The translations under genes and the position numbers were made by a program. DNA of 64,000 bases, taken from assembly GCF_004368405.1 (NCBI RefSeq), contig NZ_SBJH01000072.1:1-64000 (forward strand). The letters are read 5' to 3'. The notes beneath the pieces are model-generated. The model saw nothing but the letters and a program-made list of their open reading frames with translations, was not told the DNA's origin and searched no databases. Within the stretch, counting starts at the first letter, position 1. Each line of letters opens with the position of its first letter. The stretch is from Olivibacter sp. XZL3 (GTDB lineage: Bacteria > Bacteroidota > Bacteroidia > Sphingobacteriales > Sphingobacteriaceae). Of the stretch, positions 2,664 to 18,318 are shown in pieces.

Positions 2664-5600
2664 ATGAAATTCTGGATACTATTTTTATCAATTTACTTAG
2701 CTGCTATGCACAATGCCGCTGCACAGCAGGAAATTGTAAGAGGTTTGGTGCTTGATAGCCTGAGCGGTGCTGCACTTCAGGGTGTAACGCTTCGCGCCGA
2801 ACGCAGTAACACCACGGTGCTAACGGATAGCTATGGCCGCTTTTCTATAGGTGTTTCGCTGCCTGATACCATCCGCGTCAGTTTGGTGGGCTATGCGCCT
2901 TTTAAGTTGGGGATCGCTGGTCCGCATGAACTTTTACGGATTACACTTCTGGCGCAAACGGCTGTGCTTGATGAGGTGGCTATAGTAAGCACGGGCTACC
3001 AGCGTATACCAAAGGAGCGGGCTACCGGCAGTTTTGATTTGATAGACAATGAACTGCTAAACAGAAGCGTTTCGCCTGATTTTTTAACTCGCTTGGAAAA
3101 CCTGAGCCCGGGATTGCAATTTAATAAGGGCGATGCGGCTGACACAGACCCTTTCCTGATCCGGGGAAGAAGCACTATCACAGCGGATGCCCAACCTTTG
3201 GTTGTACTGAATGATTTTCCTTATGATGGTGACTTGGCTAATATCAATCCCAATGATATCGAAAGTGTGAGTGTGCTGAAAGATGCGGCGGCGGCTTCTA
3301 TATGGGGAGCCAGGGCGGCTAATGGTGTTATTGTCATTACAACAAAAAAGGGAAAAACGACTAAGCCGCGCATTGAACTGAATACCAATGTAACATTACA
3401 AGCTAAACCTGATGTCTATAATGTGTCTTGGATGAGCAGTGCCGATAGGATAGATTGGGAACAGCGCTTATTCGACCTGGGTTATTACGATGGTGCTAAA
3501 TTAGGCAATACCTTAGCGCGGCAGGTAACCGCTATACCGGAGGCTGTTGAGCTTATGATAGCCAATGAAGCGGATTTAGCAGTTGCGTTGAACGAGCTAC
3601 GACAGCAAGATGCCCGCAGGGATATCGAGCGGTATTTCTATCAAAATAGCATTAATCAACAGTATAACCTAAATATCAGTGGCGCGCAGGATAAATTGAC
3701 CTATTTTTTCTCGGCAGGCTACGATGCCAACCGTTCAAATCTGGTTGGACAACATAACGAGCGGATATCGCTGCGTAATGCTACTACCTACCGCTTAACA
3801 GATAAACTGCAACTGCAAGCGACGATGCAGTACATCCAATCGGAGGAGGAGCTCGGCGATAACCCGGGAATGAACTCAGCAATTGGTTATGGCTTGAATG
3901 GCTTAAGCCCCTATACCCGCTTGGTGGATGAGCATGGCTTGGCCTTGCCTGTTCATAGTTATTACCGTAAAGGCTTTATTGATACAGCGGGTGCCGGAAA
4001 CTTTCTGGACTGGAATTTTAGGCCTTATGATGAAATCCAGTTCCAACGAACGACGAACAATATCCGGGATATTTTAGTGAATGGTACAGCCCGCTACGAA
4101 ATTTTAAAGGGCTTACAGGCAGAGGTACTTTATCAGTACCAATACCAGCAGGACAAAAATCAAACGGCTACGGACGAGCAGTCTTTTACAGCACGGAATC
4201 GTATCAATAGGTTTACGCAGATCAATCCTGCTACGGGCACCGTCACTTATCCGGTACCGCTGGGTGGTATGCTTCAAACGTCGGATAATGAAATCAGAAG
4301 TCATCAGGGCCGTGCGCAACTCAACTTTACCAAATCCTGGCATGATAAGCATCATGTGGATGCAATTGCCGGAGTAGAAATTAGAAGTAAGCAAACGGAT
4401 GGGATGAGCTATTTTTATTATGGTTACCGCCCACAGTATAACGCGTTTAATGTAAATGTCGATTTTGTGAACACGTATCCTCTTACAATCTCAACAGGAA
4501 ACTCGCGTATTCCCTCCGGTAGTAATGGACTGGTCAGGTTGACGGATAACTTCTTTTCTTTATACGCAAACGGGGCCTATACTTATCATGATAAATACAC
4601 CTTCTCTGCCAGTATGCGAAAGGATGAGGCAAATCTTTTTGGCGTATCTAGTAACATGCGTGGTACACCACTCTGGTCGCTCGGTGCGAAATGGCAAATC
4701 AATCGAGAGGCTTGGTACACGTTGGATTGGCTGCCGGTACTTAACCCACGTGTAACCTATGGGGTGAATGGTAATATTTCAAGAGCTGCATCCGCTTTAA
4801 CTACAGCTTATCTCTATTCCGGTGGTACCACGCATCGATACCCGACGGCTACAGTAGTGAGGCCTCCGAATGATCAGTTGCGCTGGGAACGGGTTAAGAT
4901 GTTGAACCTGGGCCTGGATTTCAGTTTGAAAAGGAATGTTTTGTCAGGTAGTATAGAATATTATGATAAGACGGCGACCGACCTGTTGGCTCAAACACCT
5001 ACAGACCCCACCTTGGGCTTTTCATCAGTCTTTGCCAATGTGGCCAGTATGAAGGGTAGGGGCTGGGATATACAGCTGAATAGTTTGAATTTGGACAAGG
5101 CTTTGCGCTGGCAAAGTAATCTAATTTATAGTTATTCCGTCAACAAGGTGACGGAATACCTGATGCCGGTAAGTAATGTTGGACGAAGCTATGTAACAGC
5201 TTTAACAGCGGTGCAACCCATCATTGGGATGCCGCTTTATACAGCTTATAGCTTCCCTTGGGCAGGCCTTGATCCGGAAACGGGTGCGCCGCGCAGCTAC
5301 CTCAATGGGGAGGTGAGCATAGACTATAACGCTATCTATAATACTACAAGCTTAGATGAGTTGCAATATCATGGTCCGGTGCAACCTGTGCATTATGGTG
5401 CGCTCCGCAACACGTTTTCTTTTAAGGAATTTACGCTCTCTTTTAATATCAGTTACAAATTTGGTTACTATTTCAGAGCGCCTACGGTTATCAATAATGC
5501 TATTGTAGCAGGTTGGGATGGACATGGTGATTACGCTCTGCGTTGGCAAAAGCCGGGTGATGAACAGCAAACCCATGTGCCTGCCATGATTTACCCTGCC

Positions 5601-5858
5601 AATGTAAATCGGGATAACGTATATCGATATGCTTCGGTGCATATACTAAAGGGGGATCATATTCGGCTAGAAGATGTCAACTTTTCCTATACCTTCCGGC
5701 GAGCTAAAAAAATGCCTTTCCAATCTATGCGGCTCTTTGTGTATGCTGCCAATTTACCGGTGTTGTGGACGGCTAATAACCGCGGTATTGATCCTTATTT
5801 TAATAATGTGCCCAGAACAGCTGGCAGCTTTGCCTTGGGTATGAATTTAACCTTATAA
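2664..5858 (+). CDS. SusC/RagA-family TonB-linked outer membrane transporter
   Basis: This 1064-residue protein has a signal peptide (residues 1-21), a carboxypeptidase-regulatory-like domain (about 24-100), a TonB plug domain with the family signatures LIRGRSTI and VLKDAAAASIWGARAANGV, and a long beta-barrel ending in the aromatic-poor SFALGMNLTL. The family imports oligomers across the outer membrane together with a SusD lipoprotein. The SusD partner starts 10 bp downstream. The thioredoxin protein just upstream is a frequent neighbour of such pairs. The substrate cannot be told from the sequence, because no glycosidase or peptidase lies in this short operon. Confidence 0.95.
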   Translation: MKFWILFLSIYLAAMHNAAAQQEIVRGLVLDSLSGAALQGVTLRAERSNTTVLTDSYGRFSIGVSLPDTIRVSLVGYAPFKLGIAGPHELLRITLLAQTAVLDEVAIVSTGYQRIPKERATGSFDLIDNELLNRSVSPDFLTRLENLSPGLQFNKGDAADTDPFLIRGRSTITADAQPLVVLNDFPYDGDLANINPNDIESVSVLKDAAAASIWGARAANGVIVITTKKGKTTKPRIELNTNVTLQAKPDVYNVSWMSSADRIDWEQRLFDLGYYDGAKLGNTLARQVTAIPEAVELMIANEADLAVALNELRQQDARRDIERYFYQNSINQQYNLNISGAQDKLTYFFSAGYDANRSNLVGQHNERISLRNATTYRLTDKLQLQATMQYIQSEEELGDNPGMNSAIGYGLNGLSPYTRLVDEHGLALPVHSYYRKGFIDTAGAGNFLDWNFRPYDEIQFQRTTNNIRDILVNGTARYEILKGLQAEVLYQYQYQQDKNQTATDEQSFTARNRINRFTQINPATGTVTYPVPLGGMLQTSDNEIRSHQGRAQLNFTKSWHDKHHVDAIAGVEIRSKQTDGMSYFYYGYRPQYNAFNVNVDFVNTYPLTISTGNSRIPSGSNGLVRLTDNFFSLYANGAYTYHDKYTFSASMRKDEANLFGVSSNMRGTPLWSLGAKWQINREAWYTLDWLPVLNPRVTYGVNGNISRAASALTTAYLYSGGTTHRYPTATVVRPPNDQLRWERVKMLNLGLDFSLKRNVLSGSIEYYDKTATDLLAQTPTDPTLGFSSVFANVASMKGRGWDIQLNSLNLDKALRWQSNLIYSYSVNKVTEYLMPVSNVGRSYVTALTAVQPIIGMPLYTAYSFPWAGLDPETGAPRSYLNGEVSIDYNAIYNTTSLDELQYHGPVQPVHYGALRNTFSFKEFTLSFNISYKFGYYFRAPTVINNAIVAGWDGHGDYALRWQKPGDEQQTHVPAMIYPANVNRDNVYRYASVHILKGDHIRLEDVNFSYTFRRAKKMPFQSMRLFVYAANLPVLWTANNRGIDPYFNNVPRTAGSFALGMNLTL

Positions 5859-5868
5859 AAATAAACAG

Positions 5869-7266
5869 ATGAGTAATTTATATGTAATCGCCTGCCTACT
5901 CCTTTTAGCGGGATGCAGCAAATCTGAATTTTTAAGCGAGAATCCTAATCGCTCGCAGATTGTGCCGACAACTTTGGACGACTTTCAAGCCATATTAGAT
6001 CGGGATATTGAAATGAATGGCGTGGGTAGTACCGCCCGTGGCCCGGTACCGGGGATAGGTGAAGCTGCGTCGGATAGTTATTACGTTACGGATGCAGATT
6101 TTAATGGAATGCTACAGCCTCAAATTCAAAATTATTACCTATGGGCTGCGGAGCCATACGTTGGCGATGCCGTGTACGATTGGGATTATCCCTACTTAGT
6201 GATTTTTTCTGCGAATGTGGTGCTGAAAGGATTGGAAAATTTGGCTCCTACGTCTACAGATGTTCGGCAATACAACATGGTCAAGGGCCAGGCTCATTTT
6301 CATAGGGCACATGCATATTTTCAATTGGCACAAATTTTTGCCCCTCCATATCACAAAGGCAATTTGACCGGTAAGTGGGGGCTCCCGCTGCGGTTAGAGG
6401 CAGATTTAAACGAACCCGTCAAAAGAGCTACATTGCAAGAAACCTACAATCTCATCCTTAATGATTTATCAGCGGCGAGAGAACTGCTAGCCGCTGATAT
6501 CCAAGTGAAGACGAGGGCTTCTAAACAAGCCGCATTTGCGTTGCTTGCACGAACGTATTTAATTATGCAGGAATATGAATCTGCTTATACCTATGCTGAT
6601 AGCTGTTTACAGCTTATGGGCAACTTGCTCGACTATAATGAAATAAACGCCGAGCTTTCGTATCCCTTCGTTGCCGGCAGTCAAGAGCATAGGGAAGTGA
6701 TATTTTCGTGTAATATGATCAGCCGCCCATTAATGTCCTATCCTTTTCGCCCAACTTTTGCACGTGTAGACAGTGTTTTATATGCATCCTATGATGAACA
6801 TGATTTACGGAAAAAAGTGTTTTTTAATCAGGAAGAGAATGGTGTGAGCTTTAAAGGCAGTTATGATGGCAGAGAATATAATTTTGCAGGATTGGCAAGC
6901 GATGAGGTTTATCTTATCCGAGCGGAAGCAGCGGCGAGGTTGGGCAACACTGAACAGGCCTTGAATGATCTGAACCGATTGAAGGCTGCCCGGTGGGAGA
7001 AAAATGTGGCCTTCCAGCCGTATTCGGCAACTAGCCAAGAGGAGGCGCTAGCCTATGTGCTGGCAGAGCGTAAAAAAGAATTGCTGTTCCGTGGCTTGCG
7101 CTGGTCGGATTTAAGGCGTTTAAACCTTGAGGGTAGAGCGATAAGCATAGAACGAATGATAGACGGCAAAATGTATGCGCTGCTCCCTAATGATCCGCGG
7201 TATACCTACCCGATACCGAATGAAGTGATTGCTTTCCATCCGGATATGCCGCAAAATGAACGGTAA
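5869..7266 (+). CDS. SusD/RagB-family nutrient-binding lipoprotein
   Basis: The 465-residue product begins with a lipoprotein signal (LLLLAGC, lipid-attached Cys near residue 16). It contains the SusD hallmarks: a TPR-like helical region with GQAHFHRAHAYFQLAQ, and C-terminal repeats such as VYLIRAEAAARLG and AERKKELLFRGLRWSDLRRL. It would cap the upstream SusC barrel at the cell surface and bind the ligand. It is the last gene of this operon and is followed by a strong hairpin shared with the convergent gene on the other strand. Confidence 0.95.
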   Translation: MSNLYVIACLLLLAGCSKSEFLSENPNRSQIVPTTLDDFQAILDRDIEMNGVGSTARGPVPGIGEAASDSYYVTDADFNGMLQPQIQNYYLWAAEPYVGDAVYDWDYPYLVIFSANVVLKGLENLAPTSTDVRQYNMVKGQAHFHRAHAYFQLAQIFAPPYHKGNLTGKWGLPLRLEADLNEPVKRATLQETYNLILNDLSAARELLAADIQVKTRASKQAAFALLARTYLIMQEYESAYTYADSCLQLMGNLLDYNEINAELSYPFVAGSQEHREVIFSCNMISRPLMSYPFRPTFARVDSVLYASYDEHDLRKKVFFNQEENGVSFKGSYDGREYNFAGLASDEVYLIRAEAAARLGNTEQALNDLNRLKAARWEKNVAFQPYSATSQEEALAYVLAERKKELLFRGLRWSDLRRLNLEGRAISIERMIDGKMYALLPNDPRYTYPIPNEVIAFHPDMPQNER

Positions 7267-7318: not shown

Positions 7319-7603
7319 CTAAGGATTGGCTCTGTAAACGACATCCTGGGCCCCGCTTGCAGATGAATCATCCAGTTCAGCTGGATTCTGCGGCTCGGTA
7401 AAGCCAAGTGCACAGATTGTTGGACCAGTTGGGTTACAATCTTCATGCTCGTTCTGCATGTCTTCAGAATAGTTGCCGGCATTATCACGGATATACCAGT
7501 TCAATTCTTGAGATTGTTCAGCCACCCGTGGTTCTTCTGCTGTAAACGACATTAGCGTTACGGCAAAGGCAAGTGCACCTGCTCCTAAGAAGTAATTCTT
7601 CAT
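7319..7603 (-). CDS. Small exported protein resembling DUF6520
   Basis: The 94-residue product has an N-terminal signal-type hydrophobic segment (YFLGAGALAFAVTLMSF), then an acidic region with the paired cysteines and WY..DNAGNY / GPTICALGFTEPQ pattern that I associate with the DUF6520 family of Bacteroidota. The function of this family is unknown; members are short, exported and often encoded next to a MauE-like membrane protein, as here. The gene lies 33 bp downstream of that gene in the same direction, so the two are probably co-transcribed. Confidence 0.75.
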   Translation of the reverse strand: MKNYFLGAGALAFAVTLMSFTAEEPRVAEQSQELNWYIRDNAGNYSEDMQNEHEDCNPTGPTICALGFTEPQNPAELDDSSASGAQDVVYRANP

Positions 7604-7636: not shown

Positions 7637-8113
7637 TTAACAACCTATGCCGGCCCCTTCACCCTTCCGGTCGGCATAGATTATATTGTTGGTATGTTGT
7701 TTATTGATAAAGTATGTTGAAAGGCCCACAGCTGCTATAAGCAAAAAGGTGATGTTGAAGTATAGTTGCCCTTCCCAGCTGATATCTTTCACAATAGATA
7801 TACAAGAGCACGGCAGGTATTCAAATAGGCCAAGCAGTACAGCGCTCACATAGCTTGTGAAAAGAACCATTAAAAGGGCGGCGCTGAGTAAACCAAAAAA
7901 TCTCTTTTCTGGAATTGTCAGCAGGATAATCACAATAGTCAGCACTGACGGGATGACATAGCTCAGCACGCTAGACAATACCGGGCTGAAAACCTGCCGC
8001 TGCATTTTTGACTGAAATTGTTCGAAATGATGTATTTGGTCATAGAGAAAGCAGGCGAACATCGCAATCAATAAAAAACAGATAATGTTTATGATAGTCT
8101 TGTACTTTTTCAT
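7637..8113 (-). CDS. MauE/DoxX-like membrane protein
   Basis: From the ATG at 8113 the product is 158 residues with four hydrophobic segments: TIINIICFLLIAMFACF, a second at about 55-75 (VLTIVIILLTIP), a third around GLLSAALLMVLFTSYVS, and the last near FNITFLLIAAVGLSTYF. A PCSC motif between the third and fourth is typical of MauE-like proteins, which are thought to handle redox steps during maturation of exported proteins. I chose 8113 rather than the longer frame to 8239 because an AGGAG-type site precedes it and the upstream residues look untranslated. It is encoded with a small exported protein that has two cysteines. Confidence 0.75.
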   Translation of the reverse strand: MKKYKTIINIICFLLIAMFACFLYDQIHHFEQFQSKMQRQVFSPVLSSVLSYVIPSVLTIVIILLTIPEKRFFGLLSAALLMVLFTSYVSAVLLGLFEYLPCSCISIVKDISWEGQLYFNITFLLIAAVGLSTYFINKQHTNNIIYADRKGEGAGIGC

Positions 8114-8282
8114 GTTTGCTTCTCCTTTCTTATTTAACCAGCGGCCGCCGATCGTTTTGTCATGCCCAGATCGGCAGCCGGCCGGTAATGGAACTATGTC
8201 TACAAGCGGTTTAGCAAGCCTTCGTTTCCATAGAAGCAAAACTACTAAGCTAATGGACTCAATATTGGTGCGTTATACACCA

Positions 8283-8867
8283 TTATTGCTGTTTATTTTT
8301 TCGTAAGTAGTTCATGAGCGAGCGGTAGTAGGTTCTTTTGTTGATGTTTAAAAAGCGTAAACGTTGCTGCATGGTTAACGGGTGGATTTGTTTAGGTAAG
8401 TACTGCATGCTGACGTCAAAGCGTTGGTGAGGTTTCATCTTCATGATCTTGAGTAGTTGCGTACGCTGATTGATTTTATGTTGTTTCAGCACATGCAAAA
8501 GTTCGGCGAAAGCGGGCCGTGTACGTTGTGCATCCTGTAAATGGAAGATCGGTATTTCAAGGATTGAACTGTTTTCCAGAAAACGGATAGCAAGTTGGTT
8601 GCTCCGTTTACTGAATGGATGCTTCGTGCCGACAAAATAATCGTTCGCAGTGCTTACCCAATAGATGGTTTCCTGTGTATTGGGTGGAATGTCCAAGCCT
8701 GCCACCGTTCCTTCCAATACAAAGCACCACCGCAATTTTACTTCGCCCTTCATGATATAATACTCGTTTTTACTGTAGGTAAGCACACGGGCATGTTGCC
8801 GGATAAATTGCTTGTCGTCCCAGTTTAGGGTAACGTATTTCCGCCAGAAGGTAAAGAATCGTTCCAT
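8283..8867 (-). CDS. Crp/Fnr-family transcriptional regulator
   Basis: The 194-residue protein has the cyclic-nucleotide-binding beta-roll layout (residues about 20-110, with YYIMKGEVKLRWCFVLEGTVAG) and a C-terminal region with a helix-turn-helix-like segment (LTMQQRLRFLNINKRTYYRSLMNYL, in parts). Such short Crp-like proteins are common in Bacteroidota. It is encoded upstream of the MauE-like and DUF6520-like genes in the same direction, with 169 bp between, so it may act on them. The ligand is unknown. Confidence 0.85.
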   Translation of the reverse strand: MERFFTFWRKYVTLNWDDKQFIRQHARVLTYSKNEYYIMKGEVKLRWCFVLEGTVAGLDIPPNTQETIYWVSTANDYFVGTKHPFSKRSNQLAIRFLENSSILEIPIFHLQDAQRTRPAFAELLHVLKQHKINQRTQLLKIMKMKPHQRFDVSMQYLPKQIHPLTMQQRLRFLNINKRTYYRSLMNYLRKNKQQ

Positions 8868-9166: not shown

Positions 9167-9313
9167 ATGAAAAGCAATCAAAAATTAGCCTTTAGGCCCA
9201 ACATCGCAGCGCTGACTGAGCCGCTGTCTTTAGCAGTTTTTATGGACCGCTTTGTTTTCCTCGACGATAATGACGATGACGGCGGATCGAAATGTGATAT
9301 CGAGATTTTGTAA
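9167..9313 (+). CDS. 48-residue peptide, candidate modified or signalling peptide precursor
   Basis: ATG at 9167, preceded by AATAGG, opens 48 codons ending with TAA at 9311-9313. The product starts MKSNQKLAFRPNIAALTE, continues PLSLAVFMDRFVFLDD, then NDDDGGSKCDIEIL. This is a leader-like N-terminus, an acidic stretch, a Gly-Gly pair and a short tail with one Cys. A hairpin (9327-9348) separates it from the acyltransferase gene, a layout that often gives more peptide than enzyme. The peptide is too short for ordinary gene callers. I see no known family. The inference that it is a precursor rests on size, composition and neighbours. Confidence 0.5.
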   Translation: MKSNQKLAFRPNIAALTEPLSLAVFMDRFVFLDDNDDDGGSKCDIEIL

Positions 9314-9326
9314 GGGTGAACGGGGT

Positions 9327-9348
9327 CATGCCCCTTTTTCGGGGCATG
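9327..9348 (+). terminator. Attenuator-like hairpin after the peptide gene
   Basis: CATGCCCC at 9327-9334 pairs with GGGGCATG at 9341-9348 around a 6-nt loop, followed by a short CCTCTTT. It starts 13 bp after the peptide stop and ends 29 bp before the acyltransferase ATG, so it may let only part of the transcripts continue. Confidence 0.6.
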
Positions 9349-9377
9349 CCTCTTTGCTTAATTGATAACCGAATACG

Positions 9378-10388
9378 ATGATAAAGCAATATAGAATTGA
9401 GAAAGCCATCATAGAAGAACGCTATGATAGCTTTAGCCTCGCCAAAGCCAATGACCGGACGCTGTACCATTACGCTTTTTTTAGTGCTAACTTGCACCGT
9501 TTTCTGCCGCACATCCCTTGGCATGAGCATGCGAGGCTCTTTAAAGAGATGGCTCTTAACCAGTCCCTCAGCTTGCTGGATATGCAATATGCAACGGTAT
9601 TTGCCGATAATACGCTGCAGACGGCGGTGGAAAACTTAAGGGATCAACTACAGGCGCAGCCGGGGATTGTGGTGACTTTCCATACGGGCTCCTACCGCTT
9701 ATTGAATTTCCTGTTGACTAAAGCGGGCGTGCCTATTTCTTTGGTGGTGTCTAAACACACTTATATGAAGGAGGGAGAGGCTTTCCGCGAAGCGTTCCGT
9801 AAATTAGGGAATGGGACCGGGCATTTCGACCTCATTGTGGCGGAACAGCCGCAAGCCTTGTTGAGGATGGTGCGTAGTTTGAAAGACGGCAATAATCTGC
9901 TGTTGTATATGGATGGCAATACAGGCATGCGGGCAAGGCTGAATCAGCTAGAGGAGATTAGTTGGTTCGGTAAGCCTCTTTTTGTCCGTCGGGGCGTTCC
10001 TTATTTGGCGCATGCTGCGCAGGTGCCGATTTATCCGGTGTTGAGCGAACGGGGGGCAACAGGCGTGGACTTGCTTATTTTGTCGAAAATTGATCCCGCA
10101 GGCTTCGTTCAGCGGACCGCCTTTATCGCAGAAACCTGTCAACATTTGTATGCTTTGTTGGAGGCTGTCTTGCAAAAGCAGCCGGAGCAGTGGACTTGCT
10201 GGCCCTATATTCACCGAAACTTAGGGCCTTCAATTTCAGGTAATCCCTTAAGCGAGCCGGAAAATCAGTTGTCTTGCTGGTCTGTATTTAAGTTTGGCTC
10301 GGACTGCTATCTTTTCGATAAAATAAATTATCAATTTTTCATGATTACGAGCGAAATGTATAAAGATTGTGTGGAAATGTGCTTATAA
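9378..10388 (+). CDS. LpxL-like acyltransferase with extra C-terminal tail
   Basis: The 336-residue protein shows an HTGSYR motif (His102), in the place of the HxxxxD/E catalytic motif of LpxL/HtrB acyltransferases, and LLLYMDGNTG (Asp179) in a second conserved place. A basic stretch follows (WFGKPLFVRRGVPYL). It lacks the N-terminal membrane segment usual for LpxL. Residues about 300-336 (beginning CWSVFKFGSDCYLFDK) form an added tail whose hydrophobic/aromatic pattern recalls a small peptide-binding domain such as PqqD; this is a guess. With the peptide gene directly upstream and a two-component system downstream, the enzyme may acylate a peptide rather than lipid A. Confidence 0.65.
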   Translation: MIKQYRIEKAIIEERYDSFSLAKANDRTLYHYAFFSANLHRFLPHIPWHEHARLFKEMALNQSLSLLDMQYATVFADNTLQTAVENLRDQLQAQPGIVVTFHTGSYRLLNFLLTKAGVPISLVVSKHTYMKEGEAFREAFRKLGNGTGHFDLIVAEQPQALLRMVRSLKDGNNLLLYMDGNTGMRARLNQLEEISWFGKPLFVRRGVPYLAHAAQVPIYPVLSERGATGVDLLILSKIDPAGFVQRTAFIAETCQHLYALLEAVLQKQPEQWTCWPYIHRNLGPSISGNPLSEPENQLSCWSVFKFGSDCYLFDKINYQFFMITSEMYKDCVEMCL

Positions 10389-10460
10389 AGTGATATTATT
10401 CTCACTTTTTCTTTAATTTATTATCGATTTTGTGTTAATTAATCATTAAAAATCGATTTT

Positions 10461-11549
10461 ATGAAACAATCTTTACGAATTTCTAAATCCAGACACCTGT
10501 TGTTTTGGTCTTGCTACGTCCTTATTTCTTGTTTAATCAATAAGTGGAAATTTCCTGCTACTTCTGTCTGGCCGGTACTGGGACTGAATTTATTTTTAGT
10601 GTTTTGTTTTTATGTATTGGTGCATGCTTTTGACCGTATCATGTCGGCAAGGCCTAATATCAAGGCTTGGCTCCTGTTGCTACGCGATATTTCGCTGCTG
10701 GCTGTGGGCGCTTTTGTGTTATTGGAGTTGCTGTTCCCAGCGCTTGGCCTAACCTTGGAAAGGCCGGGAGCGCGGGTGACCTGGTTGAAGTTTTTGCGCG
10801 AGGTGCTAATCGGTCTGTTTCGCTTTGGAATGTATGCTCTGGCTTATGTGTATATGAAACGAAGTGTAGAAAAGGAGAAAGATAAACGTTTGTTATTGGA
10901 AGTAAACCTGCGGCAAGCGCAAGAGAAACTGGAACTGGAGCGACTGAAACAGCAGGAGGAGAAGGAAAAATGGCTTTATGAGATGCGCTGGCAGTCGGCC
11001 CAGATTTATCCACATTTCCTGAAAAATAGCTTTTCACTTCTTTTGCTGCGTGCTATGAAGCATAATGATCCACCACTGGAACAGGCGGTACGTAGTTTGG
11101 CTGCTATTATGGATTATGCGTTGGAGACCTCGCGTACGCAAAGCCTGTTGGTTAGCGTAGAAAGGGAGTTGACTTATCTGGACTATATGTTGCGCTTGAT
11201 CAGCTTGCAGCAGGGTAGTGAAGAGGTGGTGCAATGGCGGTATAATGGGATTTTCGCTGGCCAGCAGATTCCACAGTTTACTTTGCTGACCTTGATAGAA
11301 AATGCTTTGAAGTATGGTGAGATTTCGCGCAAGCATCCTTTGATGGTAGAGACGCGGCTTAGCAACGGACGGTTCTGTTTTTCGTGCACCAACCGGAAAA
11401 AGGCTGTAGTGCGCAGTGAAAAGGCTGGATTGGGTCTTGCCAATTTACAACGACGCGGTAATATGCTGTTACAGCAGGATTTCGATCTGCAGGTGACAGA
11501 CGGAACCGAACATTTTACTGTTGAGTTGAGTATTGCCTATGCCAAATGA
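10461..11549 (+). CDS. LytS-type membrane sensor histidine kinase
   Basis: The 362-residue protein has four hydrophobic segments in the first 132 residues, a coiled-coil linker rich in Glu/Lys/Gln (about 136-172), and a His_kinase domain with phosphoacceptor motif QIYPHFLKNS (His185). An HATPase region follows with LIENALKYG (N box) and GLGLANLQRR (G box). There is no extracellular sensor domain, so the membrane part itself probably senses, as in peptide quorum-sensing kinases. Its stop overlaps the start of the response regulator gene, so the two are translationally coupled. Confidence 0.9.
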   Translation: MKQSLRISKSRHLLFWSCYVLISCLINKWKFPATSVWPVLGLNLFLVFCFYVLVHAFDRIMSARPNIKAWLLLLRDISLLAVGAFVLLELLFPALGLTLERPGARVTWLKFLREVLIGLFRFGMYALAYVYMKRSVEKEKDKRLLLEVNLRQAQEKLELERLKQQEEKEKWLYEMRWQSAQIYPHFLKNSFSLLLLRAMKHNDPPLEQAVRSLAAIMDYALETSRTQSLLVSVERELTYLDYMLRLISLQQGSEEVVQWRYNGIFAGQQIPQFTLLTLIENALKYGEISRKHPLMVETRLSNGRFCFSCTNRKKAVVRSEKAGLGLANLQRRGNMLLQQDFDLQVTDGTEHFTVELSIAYAK

Positions 11550-12276
11550 GAAACATGCCCGGGTAACGGTAATGATTGTGGACGATAATCTGCATGAGGT
11601 GCAGTTGCTAAAAGTGTATGTAGAAAGACAGGAGGAACTGGAGTTGGTGGCTATGGAAACCGATGCATATGAAGCGCGCCGTTTCTTACTGGAAAACCGG
11701 GTGGATTTACTTTTACTGGATGTAGATATGCCGGGAATGGACGGGATTAGGCTCTATGGCTCTTTGCCAGACCCACCTTTGGTGATTTTCTATACGGCGC
11801 ATGACTGCTTTGCGGTGGATAGTTATGACTTAGGTGCCGTGGATTTCTTGGTGAAGAATATGCATTATGAACGTTTCTTGAAGGCAATTAAGCGCGCCTT
11901 GGCCGAATTGGGGAAGGTAAGCGAGCCAGCACCCATGCTGAAAGAGATACCGGGTGATTATCTGTTTCTCTATGACCGGGATTTAAAAATGGAATCGCGC
12001 GTACCCCTGAGCGAAATTGAGTATGTAGAGGTTAAGAATCATGCACTGGTTTTATATTTCAGGGAAAGTACACGTGTTTACAGTAGTTCGCTGAAAGCGA
12101 ATCTGCCTATTTTGTTGGGTGCCGGTTTTATTCAGGTGAACCGAAGTTATGTGGTGCGCAAATCTGCCGTTTACTCAACGGATGGCCATGTTGTCCACTT
12201 GTGGAATAGGCCCGAAAGGCTTTCGCTTGGAAGAGCTTTTGCGAAAGCTTTTATGGAGTTTTATCATGGAAGATAG
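11539..12276 (+). CDS. LytTR-family response regulator
   Basis: Starting from the ATG at 11539 the protein has 245 residues. The receiver domain (about 10-125) has acidic pair VDD near residue 15, phosphoacceptor Asp61 in LLLLDVDMPG and Lys106 in VDFLVKN; the Pro normally after this Lys is replaced by Asn. A LytTR DNA-binding domain follows (about 145-242, IEYVEVKNHALVLYF and FIQVNRSYVV). A TTG at 11533 would add two residues. It overlaps the kinase gene by 11 bp. Expected role: activation of target genes after phosphorylation by that kinase. Confidence 0.9.
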   Translation: MPNEKHARVTVMIVDDNLHEVQLLKVYVERQEELELVAMETDAYEARRFLLENRVDLLLLDVDMPGMDGIRLYGSLPDPPLVIFYTAHDCFAVDSYDLGAVDFLVKNMHYERFLKAIKRALAELGKVSEPAPMLKEIPGDYLFLYDRDLKMESRVPLSEIEYVEVKNHALVLYFRESTRVYSSSLKANLPILLGAGFIQVNRSYVVRKSAVYSTDGHVVHLWNRPERLSLGRAFAKAFMEFYHGR

Positions 12277-12803: not shown

Positions 12804-13109
12804 ATGATTACCCAAAAACTAGATATATTGATTGAAATTCTACAGGAAGTCCGGCGACTAATGGAACAGCTGGCTGACCGGCGTACAGTGTCCCAATCGA
12901 CCAGCGAACCATTTTTGCCCATTAACCAACAGGCTTCGCCAAGCCGCGTATTGGACAACGCGGATATCAAACAAATGCTGAAAATAGGCGATACGAAGCT
13001 GTATTACCTCAAAAAGAAAAAGATCCTGAAGCCTTATAAGTTGGATGGTAAGGATGTTTATTTGGAGCATGAGGTAATTGAAGCGATAAGGGGAAGTGGT
13101 GGGTTTTGA
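12804..13109 (+). CDS. Helix-turn-helix (excisionase/MerR-like) protein
   Basis: This 101-residue protein has an N-terminal coiled-coil-like segment (ILIEILQEVRRLMEQLADR, residues about 8-26) and a C-terminal winged-helix part of the HTH_17 type (ADIKQMLKIGDTKLYYLKKK, then GKDVYLEHEVIEAI). Such proteins are frequent in Bacteroidota near mobile or accessory regions and bind DNA. It is transcribed alone; directly after its stop a long block of degenerate repeats begins. Confidence 0.8.
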   Translation: MITQKLDILIEILQEVRRLMEQLADRRTVSQSTSEPFLPINQQASPSRVLDNADIKQMLKIGDTKLYYLKKKKILKPYKLDGKDVYLEHEVIEAIRGSGGF

Positions 13110-13377
13110 GTTTTAAGTTCTAGGTTATGGGTTCTACGTTTTAAGTTCTACGTTGTAGGGTTTTAAGTTTTACGTTTTAAGTTCTAGGTTTTAGGTTTTA
13201 CATTCGAGGTTGTAGGTTTTACGTTCTACGTTTTAAGTTCTACGTTCTGCGTTATAGGTTCTACGTTGTAGGTTTTTAAGTTTTACGTTTTAAGTTCTAG
13301 GTTTTAGGTTTTACATTCGAGGTTGTAGGTTTTACGTTCTACGTTGTAGGTTTTACGTTTTAAGTTCTAGGTTTTAG
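13110..13377 (+). repeat. Degenerate GTTTTA/GTTCTA word block with an 85-bp near-perfect duplication
   Basis: The stretch is built almost only of words such as GTTTTAAG, GTTCTACG, GTTTTAGG and GTTGTAGG, about 8-11 bases each. Within it, 13148-13232 and 13261-13345 are identical over 85 bp except for one base. The sequence begins within a few bases of the stop codon of the HTH gene. No coding frame or stable hairpin was seen. Confidence 0.85.
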
Positions 13378-14043
13378 GGCGGTGGCAGAAGCAAGAGTTA
13401 TAAGTAGCAGGGGCAGGAGCAGTGGTAGGAGGATAATCGTAGCAGGAGCACTAAAGAATTGAGAGTTGCCTGTTAGTAGTTGTTAGTTGTTAGTTGCTCT
13501 TGTGTTGTCAGTTGCCAGTTGTCTGTTGCCGGTGTGGGCATTGAGCAGTATTCCACTCTTTTAACGATATTAAAACAGCCGTTTTTTCTCCCTTATGGTT
13601 GCTCAAATATTGTACATTCATTGGTTCGAAGATAACATAAGATAGGACACAAGCCCTTTTTGACACTGGAAGCTACTGTAAACCTACTGAAATGGTACTG
13701 GTTGGTACTGCGTTCACACAGAAAAGCTACTGAGCAGGAACTAGCTTGACACTGGTTTGGAACTGCGCCGACACTAGCTTGGTTATACGAATAGACTTCT
13801 TTAACACTTCTTTAATACCAAAAGCGAATGGCGCGAGTTTGTTAACTCTTGGCAATTGGACGTTACACAACTTTTTCATAAAGCTTCTACTTTATTCATT
13901 TTTCTTCATGATTATTCACAAGGTGTTGATATCCATTGATTTATGTTGTTTTTTGTTAACCTTTGAATCGTAATCGACGCGATTGGTACCAAAAAGCGAT
14001 TGCACAAATGGTTTAATTTTTAATTCTTTTAAAATTTTATGTT
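13378..14043. other. Long intergenic region with further short-word repeats
   Basis: Three segments can be seen. 13380-13440 is rich in AGCAGGAGCAG-type purine words. 13460-13530 consists of GTTGTTAGTTG and GTTGCCAGTTG variants. 13655-13790 carries repeated ACACTGG, GGTACTGG and AGCTACTG words. From about 13800 to 14043 the sequence is AT-rich and probably holds the promoter of the following gene. A frame at 13746-13973 (75 codons) has no recognisable features and is not counted as a gene. Confidence 0.5.
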
Positions 14044-14613
14044 ATGGCAAAATCCAGAAATAATGTGGTTATGCGTGGAGCAAGTGGTAAGGTCGGCAAT
14101 ATGCTTGTTTTCCGTCAAAAGGCGGGGAACACCATCATTGCTGATGTTCCGAAGATCGATCCCGATCGGGTACCTACGGATGGTCAGCGTACGGTCCAGG
14201 AACGTTTTGCCGATGCGGCCTTCTATGCAAAACGCGCGATCAGCGATCCTAATCTGAAGGAACGCTATCAGCAAAAGGCGAAACCGGGACAAACGGCTTA
14301 TAATGTGGCTTTCAAGGATTATATGACGGACCCGGAAATCAGAAGGGTGCTTACCGATCGCTATGTGGGAGCCATTGGCGATGAGATCACGATACGTGTG
14401 CGGGATGTACTGGAAGTAAAGCAGGTGCATGTGGATATTGTGAATGGTAACGGTGAGGCGATTGAGGATGGCTTCGCAGTGGCTACCGATGATACGGCCA
14501 CTGAATGGGTTTATACGGCTACGGCTAGTAATGAAGCCCTGAATGGCTCGGCTGTTACAGTCACCTTAGTGAATACCCCGGGTAATATGTCGTCGACAAT
14601 TGTCGAACTGTAA
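14044..14613 (+). CDS. Conserved hypothetical protein
   Basis: The 189-residue protein begins MAKSRNNVVMRGASGKVGN and has no signal peptide or membrane segment. The N-terminal half is basic with FADAAFYAKRAI, the C-terminal half is rich in Thr, Val and Asp and may form a beta-sandwich (about 115-189). I recall similar proteins as uncharacterised in Sphingobacteria, often near CHAP-type hydrolases. It is the first gene of a group that includes a 3-TM protein, a hydrolase and a lipoprotein, and is followed by its own terminator, so it may be the product handled by that group. Function unknown. Confidence 0.75.
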   Translation: MAKSRNNVVMRGASGKVGNMLVFRQKAGNTIIADVPKIDPDRVPTDGQRTVQERFADAAFYAKRAISDPNLKERYQQKAKPGQTAYNVAFKDYMTDPEIRRVLTDRYVGAIGDEITIRVRDVLEVKQVHVDIVNGNGEAIEDGFAVATDDTATEWVYTATASNEALNGSAVTVTLVNTPGNMSSTIVEL

Positions 14614-14621
14614 CATTCGTT

Positions 14622-14650
14622 AAAGCAGGCGGCCTTGGCCGCCCTGCTTT
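14622..14650 (+). terminator. Rho-independent-type hairpin
   Basis: AAAGCAGG (14622-14629) pairs with CCTGCTTT (14643-14650) and CGGCC with GGCCG, leaving one bulged base. It lies 8 bp after the hypothetical gene. The trailing T run is short, so termination may be partial and the downstream membrane protein may still be read through. Confidence 0.65.
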
Positions 14651-14712
14651 AATCGAATAATGAACTTGCCTACCGAACAGGTAGGTAACCAATAACAAGT
14701 AAAATAACGACT

Positions 14713-15066
14713 ATGGAAAATTTCATCATCATTTATAGAAAGTATCTTTTAATAACGCTGCTGATAGCCAGTATTTTGGCTTACATCGCTTATCAACCGC
14801 TCATCCGCTTAGTGGACATCACAGCTGCACCCATCGATTATGGGGTACTGAGTGCCGTTTTAGTGGCGGCCATAGCTGTGCTGAGTTTCGTACAACTGTG
14901 CCTTTGGGTGCTCCATCAGCATTGGCCGTTTTTGGGGGAATATGCTGCCGAGCACTTTGAACGGAACTTTAAATCGCTGCTTTCCTGGCAGAAGATTGGT
15001 GTTTACTTGGGGCTCTTACTGGCTTTTTTGTATGCTTTTGTAATGGCTTTGGGAACGGTACTTTGA
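14713..15066 (+). CDS. Small membrane protein with three hydrophobic segments, holin-like
   Basis: The 117-residue protein has hydrophobic segments at about 12-30 (LLITLLIASILAYIA), 43-68 (YGVLSAVLVAAIAVLSFVQL) and 95-115 (KIGVYLGLLLAFLYAFVMAL), with charged loops between. Size and topology resemble class I holins but no family signature is recognised. Downstream, beyond an inserted IS element, lie a CHAP-type hydrolase and a lipoprotein with a C-terminal membrane segment. Before insertion it was about 0.5 kb from them. The holin role is inference from context. Confidence 0.65.
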   Translation: MENFIIIYRKYLLITLLIASILAYIAYQPLIRLVDITAAPIDYGVLSAVLVAAIAVLSFVQLCLWVLHQHWPFLGEYAAEHFERNFKSLLSWQKIGVYLGLLLAFLYAFVMALGTVL

Positions 15067-15537
15067 AGCACCAAAGTACCCAAAGTGCTTGGCTGGCTTA
15101 CTACCTTGCAATTCGTGGCCACTTGTCCGTTCGCAAAAGGAGACACGCCCTGCAAAGGCTATCGCTTCGTTTGTCTTTTGCTTTAAGGTGTTAGCTACGC
15201 GTGAAAATATGTTTAGGGACAAGTCCGGCTGCCGATTGCTGTGTCCGTAAGCCTAGGCCATTTCGGATGATCAACGTTAATGCAAACTTGGCTCTGGTGG
15301 TAGGGCAGGACGGCCTCACGGAGTGAGCGTCAAGAAGATTTAGGATAGCCTAGGAAAAAATCATGTGAAGAAGCGAAGCATGGCCTGTGCTATGGCGCGG
15401 CTCCACAGGATTGAGGATTAGGCCTAAATCTTTAGCGAAATACGTGCAGCCTTGATCTTTATTCACTTGGGTTTATTTTTTCAAAGGTGTTCATGAGCTC
15501 GAAGCAAGCTTCTCGGTTTTGATTCTTTTTCCATCAA
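15067..15537. other. Non-coding spacer upstream of the IS element
   Basis: No gene is seen. It starts with a small inverted repeat AAGCAC/GTGCTT (15066-15090). It ends in the left arm of a hairpin, ATTCTTTTTCC at 15522-15532, whose right arm GGAAAAAGAAT is now at 17180-17190 on the other side of the IS. This type of spacer, with AAGTACCCAAAG and a terminal hairpin, looks like an interspersed intergenic repeat of the genome. Confidence 0.5.
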
Positions 15538-17174
15538 GTGGCTGTTGCACAACTCACGTTCGTTGATAACTTATTTTGATAAGGTTATGGAATAACAGTA
15601 AATTGGGATATGCAAGGAAAAAAGACCTATCAAGAGAAACTGTTCATCCAATTTCAACTTTCGGACTATGTTCCGGCGGATAATTTTTATCGGCGTCTAA
15701 AAGAGACTTTGGATTTTGAGTTTCTGTACGCGACTACATCTAAATACTATGGCAGCGAAGGCCAGAAAAGCATCGATCCGGTGGTTTTTATGAAACTGAT
15801 GCTTGTAGGTTATCTGGAAAACCTCAACAGCGATAGGCGTATTATCTGTACCTCGAAGTTGCGCCTCGATATCCTTTATATCCTTGATTACGATCTTGAT
15901 GAGGAGTTGCCATGGCACAGCACGCTGAGCAGGACCAGACAACTGTACGGCCAGGAGGTGTTCTCCGAACTCTTCAGGCGGGTGCTGGGCCAATGCATCG
16001 AAAAGGGAATGGTTTCGGGCAGGCGGCAGGCTGTTGACGGCGTCTATGTCAAAGCCAATGCCTCACTGGATAGTATGGTGCGCAAAGACATACTCGAAGA
16101 TGCGGAGCGTTATGCAAGGGAATTAGAAGAAAACGAAGAAGTACACGCTCCCCGCAGCGTGGAAATGAAAAAGACAAAAGATCGTCACTACCCTTTACTC
16201 AGGCCCAAAAAGAATGCCCATAACGATACGCATATCAGTCCTTCCGATCCCGATGCAAAGATGGCGGTAAAGACAGGAAAAGCCATGGCCCTGAATTATC
16301 TGGGACAGGTGAGCGTGGATACAGCTTCGCATGTGATTACCCATATACAGGCCTTTACCGCAGACAAAAATGATAGCCAATGTCTTCCAATCCTTTTGCC
16401 GCAGCTTGTAAGGAACCTACAGGAACACGGGCTTGATCCGGAGGAGCTTGTGGCGGATACGGGCTATAGCAGCGGTGAGGCGCTTAAAGCCCTGCAGGAG
16501 AACAACATCCGGGGATATATTCCTAACAGACCTCATTTCATGTATGAAAGGGAAGGGTTCTCCTATAATCGGCAGGGGGATTTTTATACCTGTGGGAATG
16601 GCAAACAGCTTAAATATGTTGGGACCTTTAAGAACCAGCGCTCTTTCAACAGGGAATACCGTATAGGCGTCGGGGAATGTAGGGAGTGTCCGGTAAAAGA
16701 GATGTGTCCTGCATATAGGAAAAATAAGGGTACCTCCATAAAGTCAACCATAGACAAAGACTACTATGATCAGATGCATCTGCGCATGCAGACAAAAAAG
16801 GCGAAGATCCTGATGAGGAAACGGCAGAGCACCGTGGAACCTGTTATTGGCACTCTGGTCAATTACCTGGGCATGAAGAAGGTCAACACCAAAGGACTTG
16901 CACAGGCAAATAAGTGTATGACCATAGCCGCCATTGCCTACAATCTCAAAAAAATGCTCAAGTTCAGCCCGAAAAACTGGATTAGTAACCTGCAAAGAAT
17001 AAAACTAGCCGGAAAAAGACTTTCACAGCTCATTTTCAATCCGTCCAGTATGTCCCTTATCCGCCCCGGCCTAGATACTTTGCCAACTTACTAAAATGTC
17101 AAAAGACACTAAATAAATATTCCTCAAGTCCCAATCCTTAAAATCTCAAAAGAAACAGGTAGCGCAACAGCCAC
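15538..17174 (+). mobile_element. IS1182-family insertion sequence, complete
   Basis: The ends are perfect 11-bp inverted repeats, GTGGCTGTTGC at 15538-15548 and its complement at 17164-17174, with partial similarity for a few more bases. A 4-bp direct repeat TCAA flanks both ends (15534-15537 and 17175-17178). Length is 1637 bp with one intact transposase. The target was the loop of a hairpin with arms ATTCTTTTTCC and GGAAAAAGAAT. The intact transposase, clean ends and target duplication point to a recent insertion. Confidence 0.9.
15610..17094 (+). CDS. IS1182-family DDE transposase
   Basis: The 494-residue transposase has the N-terminal DUF772-like region (KLFIQFQLSDYVPADNFYR, then DPVVFMKLMLVGYL) and a DDE catalytic core with Asp in QAVDGVYVKAN, Asp in LVADTGYSSG and Glu in STVEPVIGTL. 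A Cys-rich segment (YTCGNGK, CRECPVKEMCPAY) lies between. Length and order agree with full-length IS1182 enzymes. It fills most of the IS element and appears intact. Confidence 0.95.
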   Translation: MQGKKTYQEKLFIQFQLSDYVPADNFYRRLKETLDFEFLYATTSKYYGSEGQKSIDPVVFMKLMLVGYLENLNSDRRIICTSKLRLDILYILDYDLDEELPWHSTLSRTRQLYGQEVFSELFRRVLGQCIEKGMVSGRRQAVDGVYVKANASLDSMVRKDILEDAERYARELEENEEVHAPRSVEMKKTKDRHYPLLRPKKNAHNDTHISPSDPDAKMAVKTGKAMALNYLGQVSVDTASHVITHIQAFTADKNDSQCLPILLPQLVRNLQEHGLDPEELVADTGYSSGEALKALQENNIRGYIPNRPHFMYEREGFSYNRQGDFYTCGNGKQLKYVGTFKNQRSFNREYRIGVGECRECPVKEMCPAYRKNKGTSIKSTIDKDYYDQMHLRMQTKKAKILMRKRQSTVEPVIGTLVNYLGMKKVNTKGLAQANKCMTIAAIAYNLKKMLKFSPKNWISNLQRIKLAGKRLSQLIFNPSSMSLIRPGLDTLPTY

Positions 17175-17212
17175 TCAAGGGAAAAAGAATAAGAAATTTT
17201 TAATGTGTTAAA

Positions 17213-17875
17213 ATGAAAAAGAAAATAAATCCTTTAATAATTATATTCAGTGTCTTGATTATAAAAACAGGGCTGTCACTATGGCTTCCATTGCTTGGTG
17301 ATAGCAATAGGCATGCTACGCCCGATAGTTTGGCGAAGCAAGATGATATGCTTGCGGAAAAATTTCCCATAGAAACTACCCGTTTGAGGGTAAAGAAAAT
17401 TTACGACAGTCAACTGGGGGTACGGGAGGCGACGGGCCGTAACGACGGGCCGCAAGTGGAAGCTTATCTAGCCTATACAGGCCTAGGAAAAGGGCATGCC
17501 TGGTGTGCGGCTTTTGTTTGCTGGGTGCTGGGGCGGGCGGAGGTAGACAACCCCAAGACAGCCTGGGCCGCCAGCCTTTTTCCGCAAGATAAATTGGTGT
17601 GGCCTCGTGCGAAGGCGCTGGCAAGGGGATCACGAACAACTAACAACGAAAAACCAATAACGAAAACAAGCTGTGTGTTCGGCCTCTACTTTCCCTCCCT
17701 CAAACGGATCGCCCACTGTGGCTTTATCGATAAATGGGGCGAAAAGGAGGTGATTACCGTAGAAGGGAATACGAACGATAATGGCAGCAGGGAAGGGGAT
17801 GGGGTATATAGAAAGCGTCGGCCGATCAAAAGCCTCTATGCTGTGGCCGATTGGATAGGAGGGGAGACACGATGA
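17213..17875 (+). CDS. CHAP-type (TIGR02594-like) peptidoglycan hydrolase with N-terminal membrane anchor
   Basis: The 220-residue protein starts with a signal or anchor segment (PLIIIFSVLIIKTGLSLWLPLL). The catalytic domain shows the Cys in GHAWCAAFVCWVLG (near residue 100), the His in RIAHCGFIDKW and a polar residue in TVEGNTNDNG, matching CHAP/NlpC-like amidases of the TIGR02594 type, often phage-related. An insert around residues 141-155 (RTTNNEKPITKT) is encoded by a low-complexity AAC-rich stretch. It overlaps the lipoprotein gene by 4 bp (ATGA). Probable role: cutting peptidoglycan in a lysis or release module. Confidence 0.75.
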   Translation: MKKKINPLIIIFSVLIIKTGLSLWLPLLGDSNRHATPDSLAKQDDMLAEKFPIETTRLRVKKIYDSQLGVREATGRNDGPQVEAYLAYTGLGKGHAWCAAFVCWVLGRAEVDNPKTAWAASLFPQDKLVWPRAKALARGSRTTNNEKPITKTSCVFGLYFPSLKRIAHCGFIDKWGEKEVITVEGNTNDNGSREGDGVYRKRRPIKSLYAVADWIGGETR

Positions 17876-18318
17876 AAATCTATATAGTCATTGGTGCAGG
17901 ACTTCTACTTTCCTGTACTTCCTCGAAGCTTAAAACGAAGTATTCCACCAGCGAGACCACTTCTGCACGAAGTGATTCAGTGCGCAGTGAAACTAGCTGG
18001 CGCCGCAATAGAGCCGAAGGGTATGCAGAATATGACGCTTTATGGTGGTTAAATGGCAATGTCCGTTGGCATCCGGATAGTGGCCTCGCTGCCGATGAGA
18101 TGCTGCTGCGGTATCGGGGCGAAGCTTGGCGGAAGGCGGATCTGCTGGATAGTCAGCAACGGTTCCATGGGATGCTCAATGTGGTGCAACAGGAGACTTC
18201 CACAACATCCCAGGAGAAGCAAAAAGGGCAAAAAAGCGGATTTCGTTTACCTTGGTGGGCGTATGTGTTGCTTTTGCCAATGTGTCTTTATGTATGGAGA
18301 AGGGTAAGTCGGCACTAG
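17872..18318 (+). CDS. Lipoprotein with C-terminal membrane segment, spanin-like
   Basis: I start at 17872 because AGGAGGGGAG lies just before and the product then begins with a lipoprotein signal (IGAGLLLSC). The 148-residue protein has a polar central part with a Gln/Ser-rich stretch (about 105-125) and ends in a membrane segment (WWAYVLLLPMCLYVW) followed by Arg residues. An outer-membrane lipid anchor at one end and an inner-membrane segment at the other is the layout of a unimolecular spanin, which joins the two membranes during lysis. The sequence itself matches no family I know; the role is inferred from layout and the hydrolase gene next to it. Confidence 0.65.
   Translation: MKIYIVIGAGLLLSCTSSKLKTKYSTSETTSARSDSVRSETSWRRNRAEGYAEYDALWWLNGNVRWHPDSGLAADEMLLRYRGEAWRKADLLDSQQRFHGMLNVVQQETSTTSQEKQKGQKSGFRLPWWAYVLLLPMCLYVWRRVSRH

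Follow-up and report, generated by a model that had tools for sequence, protein, structure and literature searches.

A recurrent peptide, acyltransferase and LytS/LytTR cassette in Olivibacter and its relatives: a candidate lipopeptide signalling system

This report concerns a four-gene locus of Olivibacter sp. XZL3 (Sphingobacteriaceae), which lies at positions 9167-12276 of contig NZ_SBJH01000072.1 within the window, i.e. the whole 64,000-nucleotide stretch of DNA that was analysed (positions 1 to 64,000). Four frames stand in a row on one strand, encoding a short peptide with a cysteine near its C-terminus, an acyltransferase (AT), a LytS-type histidine kinase and a LytTR response regulator. 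An earlier note, made from the letters of this DNA, had proposed these four genes, and all of them were found where it placed them. The features of the locus are as follows.

9167..9313, + strand: precursor peptide gene, a 48-codon frame encoding 48 aa, MKSNQKLAFRPNIAALTEPLSLAVFMDRFVFLDDNDDDGGSKCDIEIL; C-terminal part ...DDNDDDGGSKCDIEIL
9293..9310, + strand: proposed core hexapeptide CDIEIL, from Cys43 to the C-terminus
9314..9359, + strand: stem-loop between the precursor and enzyme genes; inner stem 9327-9348
9378..10388, + strand: soluble LPLAT-fold (LpxM/PatA-like) AT, probably a peptide acyltransferase; 336 aa; proposed catalytic pair H102 and D179
10257..10385, + strand: C-terminal tail of the AT, residues ~294-336; three strands and a helix predicted
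10461..11549, + strand: LytS-type histidine kinase, 362 aa; four predicted membrane helices, no external domain
11539..12276, + strand: LytTR response regulator, starting at ATG 11539 or TTG 11533

The AT matches Pfam Lip_A_acyltrans (PF03279) at 23.9 bits (cut-off 22.3) and the kinase matches His_kinase at 35.8 bits (cut-off 25.2). The regulator carries both Response_reg (64.5 bits) and LytTR (35.3 bits) domains. The 48-aa peptide has no match in Pfam or NCBIfam.

A recurrent peptide gene upstream of the acyltransferase

A profile of 19 ATs, run on 399 genomes of the family to which the window belongs, detected homologues in 83 of them, spread over 5 of 25 genera. The order-level search found AT relatives in 78 of 400 genomes, largely those of the family search, and the phylum-level search in 6 of 395, with four matches outside the family (G477, G644, G701 and G833). 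The AT family appears to be centred on Olivibacter, Parapedobacter and Sphingobacterium, with which the order and phylum searches fit. The window genome itself holds five diverged AT copies with different tails. When contigs were scanned with the window AT alone as query no locus was confirmed; a narrower alignment gave 18 loci. The comparisons below use 121 AT loci, namely the window and 120 stretches picked from the family-search matches listed (further matches exist), and a subset of 41 extended loci for the wider gene-neighbourhood counts. Enzyme starts were estimated, and are misplaced in a few loci (e.g. L070 and L091).

A short frame whose last Cys lies near the C-terminus precedes the AT at 112 of the 121 loci, on a curated reading by eye, which also admits longer tails, start codons other than ATG and wrongly placed enzyme starts. 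Under a strict automatic rule (an ATG frame of 30-75 aa ending between -160 and +60 nt from the AT start, with a Cys followed by 4-8 residues) such a frame is present at 89/121 AT loci, compared with 152 of 2268 positions drawn at random from these sequences and with 8/121 upstream regions after shuffling. The earlier note had named AT genes lacking a conserved upstream peptide as evidence that would speak against it, and this check did not go against it. Ten of the 112 peptides were set by hand. All but two are distinct (110/112), and the counts are not independent, as many of the peptides are close relatives. At L149 the automatic pick was a wrong frame, which still stands in the tail tallies and was corrected in the divergence and correlation analyses. 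Nine of the relatives' peptides gave one chance-level row in Pfam and none in NCBIfam, and four further peptides gave one chance-level NCBIfam row.

The position of the Cys is nearly fixed. Five residues follow the last Cys in 68/112 peptides and six in 18/112, so that 86 of the 112 have one or the other, and this Cys is preceded by Lys in 72 peptides and by Arg in 12. A single Cys is present in 92 peptides. The tails are diverse, with 78 different ones among the 112; recurrent kinds are KCDIEIL, KCDFVIL, KCPFEIF, RCPIFTL, KCFFRTI, KCNIVFPF and DKCWPSSF, as well as a longer kind, CDVILPGxDxF. Nine loci fall outside the 112 (L106, L189, L115, L128, L172, L175, L184, L093 and L100). L106 lies at a contig edge, and L115 was found on rechecking to have a short frame ending EEEPKCDPWIF; the other seven are taken up below.

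The Gly-Gly pair pointed out in the earlier note did not recur as a family feature, as GG occurs within 8 residues before the last Cys in only 3/112 peptides, and on this count membership of the double-glycine (C39) leader family was ruled out. Elsewhere in the window genome there are four C39-type matches (L204-L207; contigs C67, C70 and C111), two of them above 100 bits, and these proteins are possible trans-acting exporters. The clusters that recur across the 41 extended loci, as far as their frames were labelled, include no recognised C39 transporter.

The upstream peptides of relatives are under purifying selection. The median ratio of nonsynonymous to synonymous difference (pN/pS) is 0.28 over 50 overlapping pairs of related peptides, none of which includes a close relative of the window peptide. 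Wherever pS exceeds 0, pN is the smaller of the two. The possibility raised beforehand, that the frame is not under protein selection, thus found no support. Within the peptide, likeness between relatives is higher in the core (Cys excluded) than in the leader at all levels of AT identity from 20% upwards, e.g. 0.42 vs 0.12 at 30-40% and 0.93 vs 0.64 at 70-80%, with leader likeness understated by the ungapped comparison used. The core diverges in step with the AT.

A stem-loop separates the peptide gene from the AT gene, as had been claimed for the window, and it is conserved in relatives. In the window it has a predicted energy of -26.9 kcal/mol (z = -3.3; 0/200 shuffles as good). Across the loci, z is below -2 in 78 of the 98 that could be measured (median -3.2), compared with 8/98 before the peptide, 9/121 inside the AT gene and 23/121 after the AT stop codon. 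In some relatives the stems are GC-rich and followed by U-rich stretches, like partial terminators. A simple terminator scan of the region gave 3 sites against a shuffle mean of 2.8, and in that scan the window hairpin does not rise above chance. In the 260 nt before the peptide gene, the 8-mers GAAGCCGT, GATCGATC and GTGATCAC are enriched, which may reflect relatedness only; GTGATCAC and GATCGATC are palindromic and are possibly regulator sites.

The acyltransferase and its remote relatives

An AlphaFold2 model of the window AT (mean predicted local distance difference test score 87.9) finds its best solved structures in 5kn7 (Z 21.3 over 251 residues, root mean square deviation 3.3) and 5f34_A (Z 21.2 over 235 residues, root mean square deviation 3.0). 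These structural matches are LpxM and PatA, which assigns the modelled enzyme to the LPLAT fold. His102 is conserved in 121/122 aligned rows, and Asp179 and Trp272 in all 122. The acid of the HX4D/E motif is mostly replaced: it is Arg107 in the window protein, and for all but five of the 122 rows the residues listed at this position are R in 61, Q in 20, A in 13, L in 6, M in 6, E in 4, F in 4 and P in 3. In two earlier studies, the catalytic His of LpxM, PatA and VexE is paired with a distant acid (D192, E200 and D532, respectively, in their own numbering), and VexE is described as active without the HX4 acid (PMC9597891, PMC6286764; for VexE, PMC9597891). The H102-D179 spacing is 77 residues, compared with 70 in LpxM and 66 in VexE by that numbering. 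For PatA, whose catalytic residue we take to be His126, it would be 74. D179 is on this spacing the probable equivalent of LpxM D192. Since the His-acid distance is near those of LpxM, VexE and PatA, we infer a working His-Asp acyltransferase.

The enzyme was expected to lack the usual membrane anchor, and indeed has no N-terminal hydrophobic segment (best 19-residue hydropathy mean 0.24 in the first 60 aa). Among the 121 ATs, with starts as estimated, a strongly hydrophobic 19-mer occurs in the first 60 residues of one. The added C-terminal tail pointed out in the earlier note is present in the window protein, in which residues ~294-335 are predicted to form three strands and a helix, and it is not an essential part of the enzyme: in the 61 of 121 proteins in which it could be delimited its length ranges from almost nothing to about 95 residues, and it is nearly absent in L070, L082, L111, L113, L115 and L167. 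The likeness of this tail to PqqD, which the note had wished to see checked, failed in profile comparison. Seven full-length tails aligned by hhalign with N-terminal regions of radical SAM and M50 proteins, themselves only presumed to resemble a RiPP recognition element (RRE; RiPP, ribosomally synthesised and post-translationally modified peptide), gave 1.6% and 5.6%. No Pfam match to PqqD was found in three full-length ATs at E 0.05, and a tail profile searched against solved structures gave matches at E 0.05 and 1.3 only. The VIA-align table lists no RRE or PqqD chain, and barely tests the tail. Kinship of the tail with PqqD or RRE domains is thus unsupported by profile comparison.

Remote relatives of the AT are found beside genes of RiPP type. 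L202 and L203, which lie outside the family and look like RiPP clusters, each encode a radical SAM/SPASM protein, an LPLAT-type AT and an M50 protein, with Cys-containing short frames upstream of the AT gene (MENQEMVS...CVINTCQC; two tandem MNNSF... frames). Their radical SAM proteins have a SPASM domain above cut-off, the only one of the NCBIfam models listed to reach it, and match RiPP maturase models well below cut-off, and their M50 proteins match the daptide and YydH/LiaK protease models, also below cut-off. A similar M50 protein adjoins the AT at L047/L100. In the window genome, a paralogous AT (L005/L073; G000:C97:1-12000, AT at 4311-5517) is flanked on one side by a short frame ending SCCFDY and on the other by an ATP-grasp protein that scores 169.8 bits against the grasp-with-spasm model (cut-off 230); L073 is a possible acylated graspetide locus. 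All RiPP-specific models at L073, L202 and L203 thus fall below their curated cut-offs. G644 and G701, which belong to another family, have MKK... frames with Cys before the AT gene; in one of the two genomes (L201) these are two identical tandem 50-aa frames (MKKQFTIKPAQ...GACCSSFDLSKMVATR) at 5265-5417 and 5479-5631 in enzyme orientation. A membrane protein with a LytTR domain lies nearby in L200, which is related to L201. The company of radical SAM/SPASM or ATP-grasp maturase relatives makes a ribosomal peptide the likely substrate of the AT. Among the gene clusters of the Sphingobacteriaceae cassette itself, no ATP-grasp or radical SAM gene recurs.

Kinase, regulator and neighbouring genes

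LytS follows the AT on the same strand at 116 of the 121 loci and is the next gene in 40 of the 41 extended loci, and a LytTR regulator was detected by profile in 37/41. The kinase and LytTR genes that the earlier note described behind the AT thus recur across the relatives. In a structure model, the window kinase is predicted to have four membrane-length helices (2-30, 37-61, 67-94 and 108 onward) joined by short loops before its cytoplasmic part, and such short-looped helices would fit a ligand inside the membrane. By hydropathy alone, only two segments stand out as strongly hydrophobic.

A possible co-variation of peptide and kinase appears at intermediate divergence. For pairs of loci with AT identity of 25-50%, likeness of the core follows that of the kinase membrane part with a partial rank correlation of 0.49 (AT and kinase domain allowed for). 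The corresponding figures are -0.09 for core against kinase domain and 0.24 for leader against membrane part.

In the window, thioredoxin-domain, SusC-like and SusD-like genes precede a group of three genes on the opposite strand to the cassette:

2664..5858, + strand: SusC/TonB-dependent receptor-like protein (Pfam Plug, 50.6 bits)
5869..7266, + strand: SusD-like lipoprotein (Pfam SusD-like_3, 102.6 bits)
7319..7603, - strand: DUF6520-like small protein (21.5 bits, below the cut-off of 25.4)
7637..8116, - strand: MauE-type membrane protein (Pfam MauE, 75.4 bits; cut-off 27)
8283..8867, - strand: divergent Crp-like regulator (weak cNMP-binding match, 18.8 bits; cut-off 27.5)

Among the extended loci, the Crp-like cluster is present in 17/41 and another regulator cluster, AraC-like by eye, in 13/41, with one or the other in 29/41. 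The MauE cluster occurs in 14, a SusC or SusD cluster in 30, and c5, an unnamed cluster with no Pfam match above cut-off, in 21 of the 41. No known RNA family was found in the window at gathering scores.

Downstream of LytTR comes a recurring set of genes whose composition varies. Besides endolysin-like proteins and those of cluster c12, which are small membrane proteins, it includes DUF6266 and DUF5675 proteins in relatives. Clusters c9-c13, c15 and c22, taken together, are represented by one or more members in 17/41 extended loci, and the set was seen at the window, L072, L075, L079, L086-L088, L090-L092, L095-L098, L102, L108 and L109. In the window the set lies at 12804-18318, and it includes HTH_17-like proteins (below cut-off) and an endolysin-like protein at 17213-17875 (PHROG endolysin match, E 4e-14); a DDE transposase gene (15610-17094) lies between the c12 gene and the endolysin-like gene. 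This downstream set may be a lysis or release module under control of the cassette.

A proposed lipopeptide signal and its alternatives

In the agr and fsr systems of Staphylococcus and Enterococcus, a short ribosomal precursor, one maturation enzyme, a kinase without a large external domain and a LytTR-type regulator are encoded in one locus. The present cassette shares this layout of precursor, enzyme, kinase and LytTR regulator. It differs from agr in its enzyme, which is a soluble LPLAT-fold acyltransferase rather than the membrane protease AgrB, and in its setting in Gram-negative Bacteroidota, with a divergent Crp- or AraC-like regulator and SusC/SusD genes; its Cys-containing tail, often preceded by an acidic stretch, also forms the very C-terminus of the precursor.

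Lipidated ribosomal peptides have been described elsewhere. In selidamides, lipolanthines, goadvionins and nostolysamides a dedicated GNAT enzyme fatty-acylates the peptide (PMC13060382). Dedicated peptide acylation would, by inference for the cassette, be common to both. The cassette enzyme is however an LPLAT rather than a GNAT protein (Z about 21; PF03279), its proposed acceptor is Cys and not the N-terminus, Lys or ornithine of those systems, and no lanthipeptide synthetase was recognised in the cassette. DAG-RiPPs of Bacteroidota bear lipid on a Cys of a ribosomal peptide, and they depend on an MNIO enzyme and on the general lipoprotein pathway with its type II signal peptide (PMC12636315), whereas the cassette has a dedicated soluble acyltransferase and a Cys near the C-terminus. 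Compared with LpxL/LpxM, PatA and VexE, the AT shares the fold (Z about 21 to LpxM and PatA), the catalytic His and a distant Asp, and the HX4 acid is absent as described for VexE; it differs in having no membrane anchor, in the replaced HX4D/E acid, and in being set beside a peptide and a two-component system. Grasp-with-spasm and radical SAM/SPASM RiPP clusters are linked to the family through relatives of their enzymes, which adjoin the remote ATs at L073, L202 and L203. The cassette is therefore agr-like in layout, yet it is neither a GNAT-lipidated RiPP nor a DAG-RiPP system as those are described (PMC13060382, PMC12636315). Among the matches listed in a search of open-licence titles and abstracts, where absence is weak evidence, none described this cassette or the action of an LPLAT/LpxL-type enzyme on a ribosomal peptide. 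We know of no LPLAT fold acting on ribosomal peptides.

We favour, with the balance tilted slightly in its favour, a self-contained cassette in which the AT fatty-acylates the core Cys of the precursor to give a lipopeptide signal for LytS/LytTR. The stem-loop behind the precursor gene would trim the downstream message, leaving the precursor in excess of the enzyme. The AT would bind the precursor and move a fatty acyl group from acyl-ACP (acyl carrier protein) or acyl-CoA to the core Cys by means of His102-Asp179. Cleavage before this Cys, usually between Lys or Arg and Cys, would release an acylated Cys hexapeptide, perhaps after an S-to-N acyl shift. Once exported, such a short lipopeptide could partition into the membrane and be read there by the four-helix LytS without an external domain, and LytTR would then switch the locus and neighbouring genes. 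The earlier note's idea of an acylated-peptide signalling or RiPP locus is thereby kept in part: the recurrent peptide gene, the hairpin and the RiPP-type neighbours of AT relatives speak for it, a double-glycine leader family is given up, and a PqqD-like tail found no support in profile comparison.

Several observations weigh against the lipopeptide signal. The tail exceeds 6 residues in 24/112 peptides, reaching 19. At L128 a fitting tail, PKCHFFPF, stands in a frame without a start codon, the L184 frame stops immediately after the Cys, and at L093, L100 and L189 no upstream Cys peptide was seen. The enzyme frame of L189 is missing its first third and is not followed by LytS. At L172 and L175 the matching peptide ends KKNDLVWL and is Cys-less, with Asn where its relatives have Cys; these frames look like natural Cys-less variants of the precursor. 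Over all 5886 pairs the partial correlation with the kinase membrane part is 0.13 (core) and 0.12 (leader), and with one representative per 50%-identity AT group (70 loci) it is 0.136 for the core, a value reached in 1/500 permutations, and 0.142 for the leader. Because core and leader are about equal in these two comparisons, ligand-receptor co-variation of the core with the LytS membrane part is suggestive only. Again as far as frames were labelled, nothing in the clusters recurring across the 41 extended loci was recognised as a protease or exporter, which leaves the model without a recognised route of release, and the 260 nt preceding the peptide gene at 112 loci yielded no established regulatory site. 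The LPLAT enzymes described in the work consulted, moreover, act on lipid or sugar acceptors (PMC9597891, PMC6286764).

Part of this evidence could also be read in other ways. The peptide might be an antimicrobial or effector lipopeptide, with LytS/LytTR regulating only its production and SusC/SusD handling uptake. Several diverged copies per genome (five in the window genome), 78 distinct tails among 112 peptides and AT relatives beside RiPP-type genes would suit such a role. We regard it as rather unlikely, since the clusters recurring across the 41 extended loci include nothing recognised as a transporter or immunity gene and the core follows the kinase membrane part at intermediate divergence (0.49), a relation that is weak over all pairs. 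Another candidate is an Agr-like thiolactone: the Cys thiol would be joined to the C-terminal carboxyl, by the AT or by a housekeeping protease, and the resulting macrocycle would signal to LytS/LytTR. In its favour are mostly hydrophobic tails in which 5-6 residues follow the last Cys (86/112), and a kinase and LytTR regulator as in agr; the CDFVIL/CDIEIL tail also resembles what we take to be the ring of the staphylococcal autoinducing peptide. The conserved enzyme has, however, an LPLAT fold, whose members take their acyl groups from thioesters rather than activating a free carboxyl, and longer tails such as CDVILPGxDxF have no fixed end point. No AgrB-like protein was recognised among the recurrent clusters, and the window genome has no AgrB-family match at E<=0.01, a cut-off that no control genome passes either. 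We hold such a ring to be unlikely.

Equally unlikely in our view is that the AT makes a lipid (e.g. an acylated aminolipid) and that the peptide is a regulatory partner of AT or LytS rather than a substrate. Enzymes of the LpxM/PatA fold do serve lipid acceptors, and profile comparison gave no support for a peptide recognition domain in the AT tail. A binding partner would nevertheless have no need of a single Cys kept at an almost constant distance from the C-terminus. Relatives of the AT occur with radical SAM/SPASM and ATP-grasp proteins and with other Cys-containing short frames, and the N-terminal membrane helix that LpxM is described as having is absent from the AT. Finally, the frame might be a leader or attenuator whose translation controls the downstream genes through the hairpin that is conserved directly behind it, the peptide itself being inert. 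In relatives, however, selection acts on the amino acids of the frame, and likeness is greater in the Cys and tail than elsewhere; for these two reasons we consider this reading very improbable.

Beyond the lipopeptide signal favoured here for the window locus, we tentatively put forward, as something that may well prove otherwise, a new class of cell-cell signal: fatty-acylated Cys hexapeptides made from ribosomal precursors by LPLAT enzymes that were recruited from the lipid A type, read within the membrane by four-helix LytS kinases, and forming parallel, sequence-distinct channels in one genome. Some of these loci lie just before the endolysin-like/DUF5675/DUF6266 module and might switch it on. 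The five diverged copies with different tails in the window genome would make signal-receptor specificity testable in one strain, and the enzyme could offer a compact means of adding fatty acids to peptides. If the proposal is true, the cassette would represent a new enzyme fold for ribosomal peptides and a peptide-signalling class for Bacteroidota.

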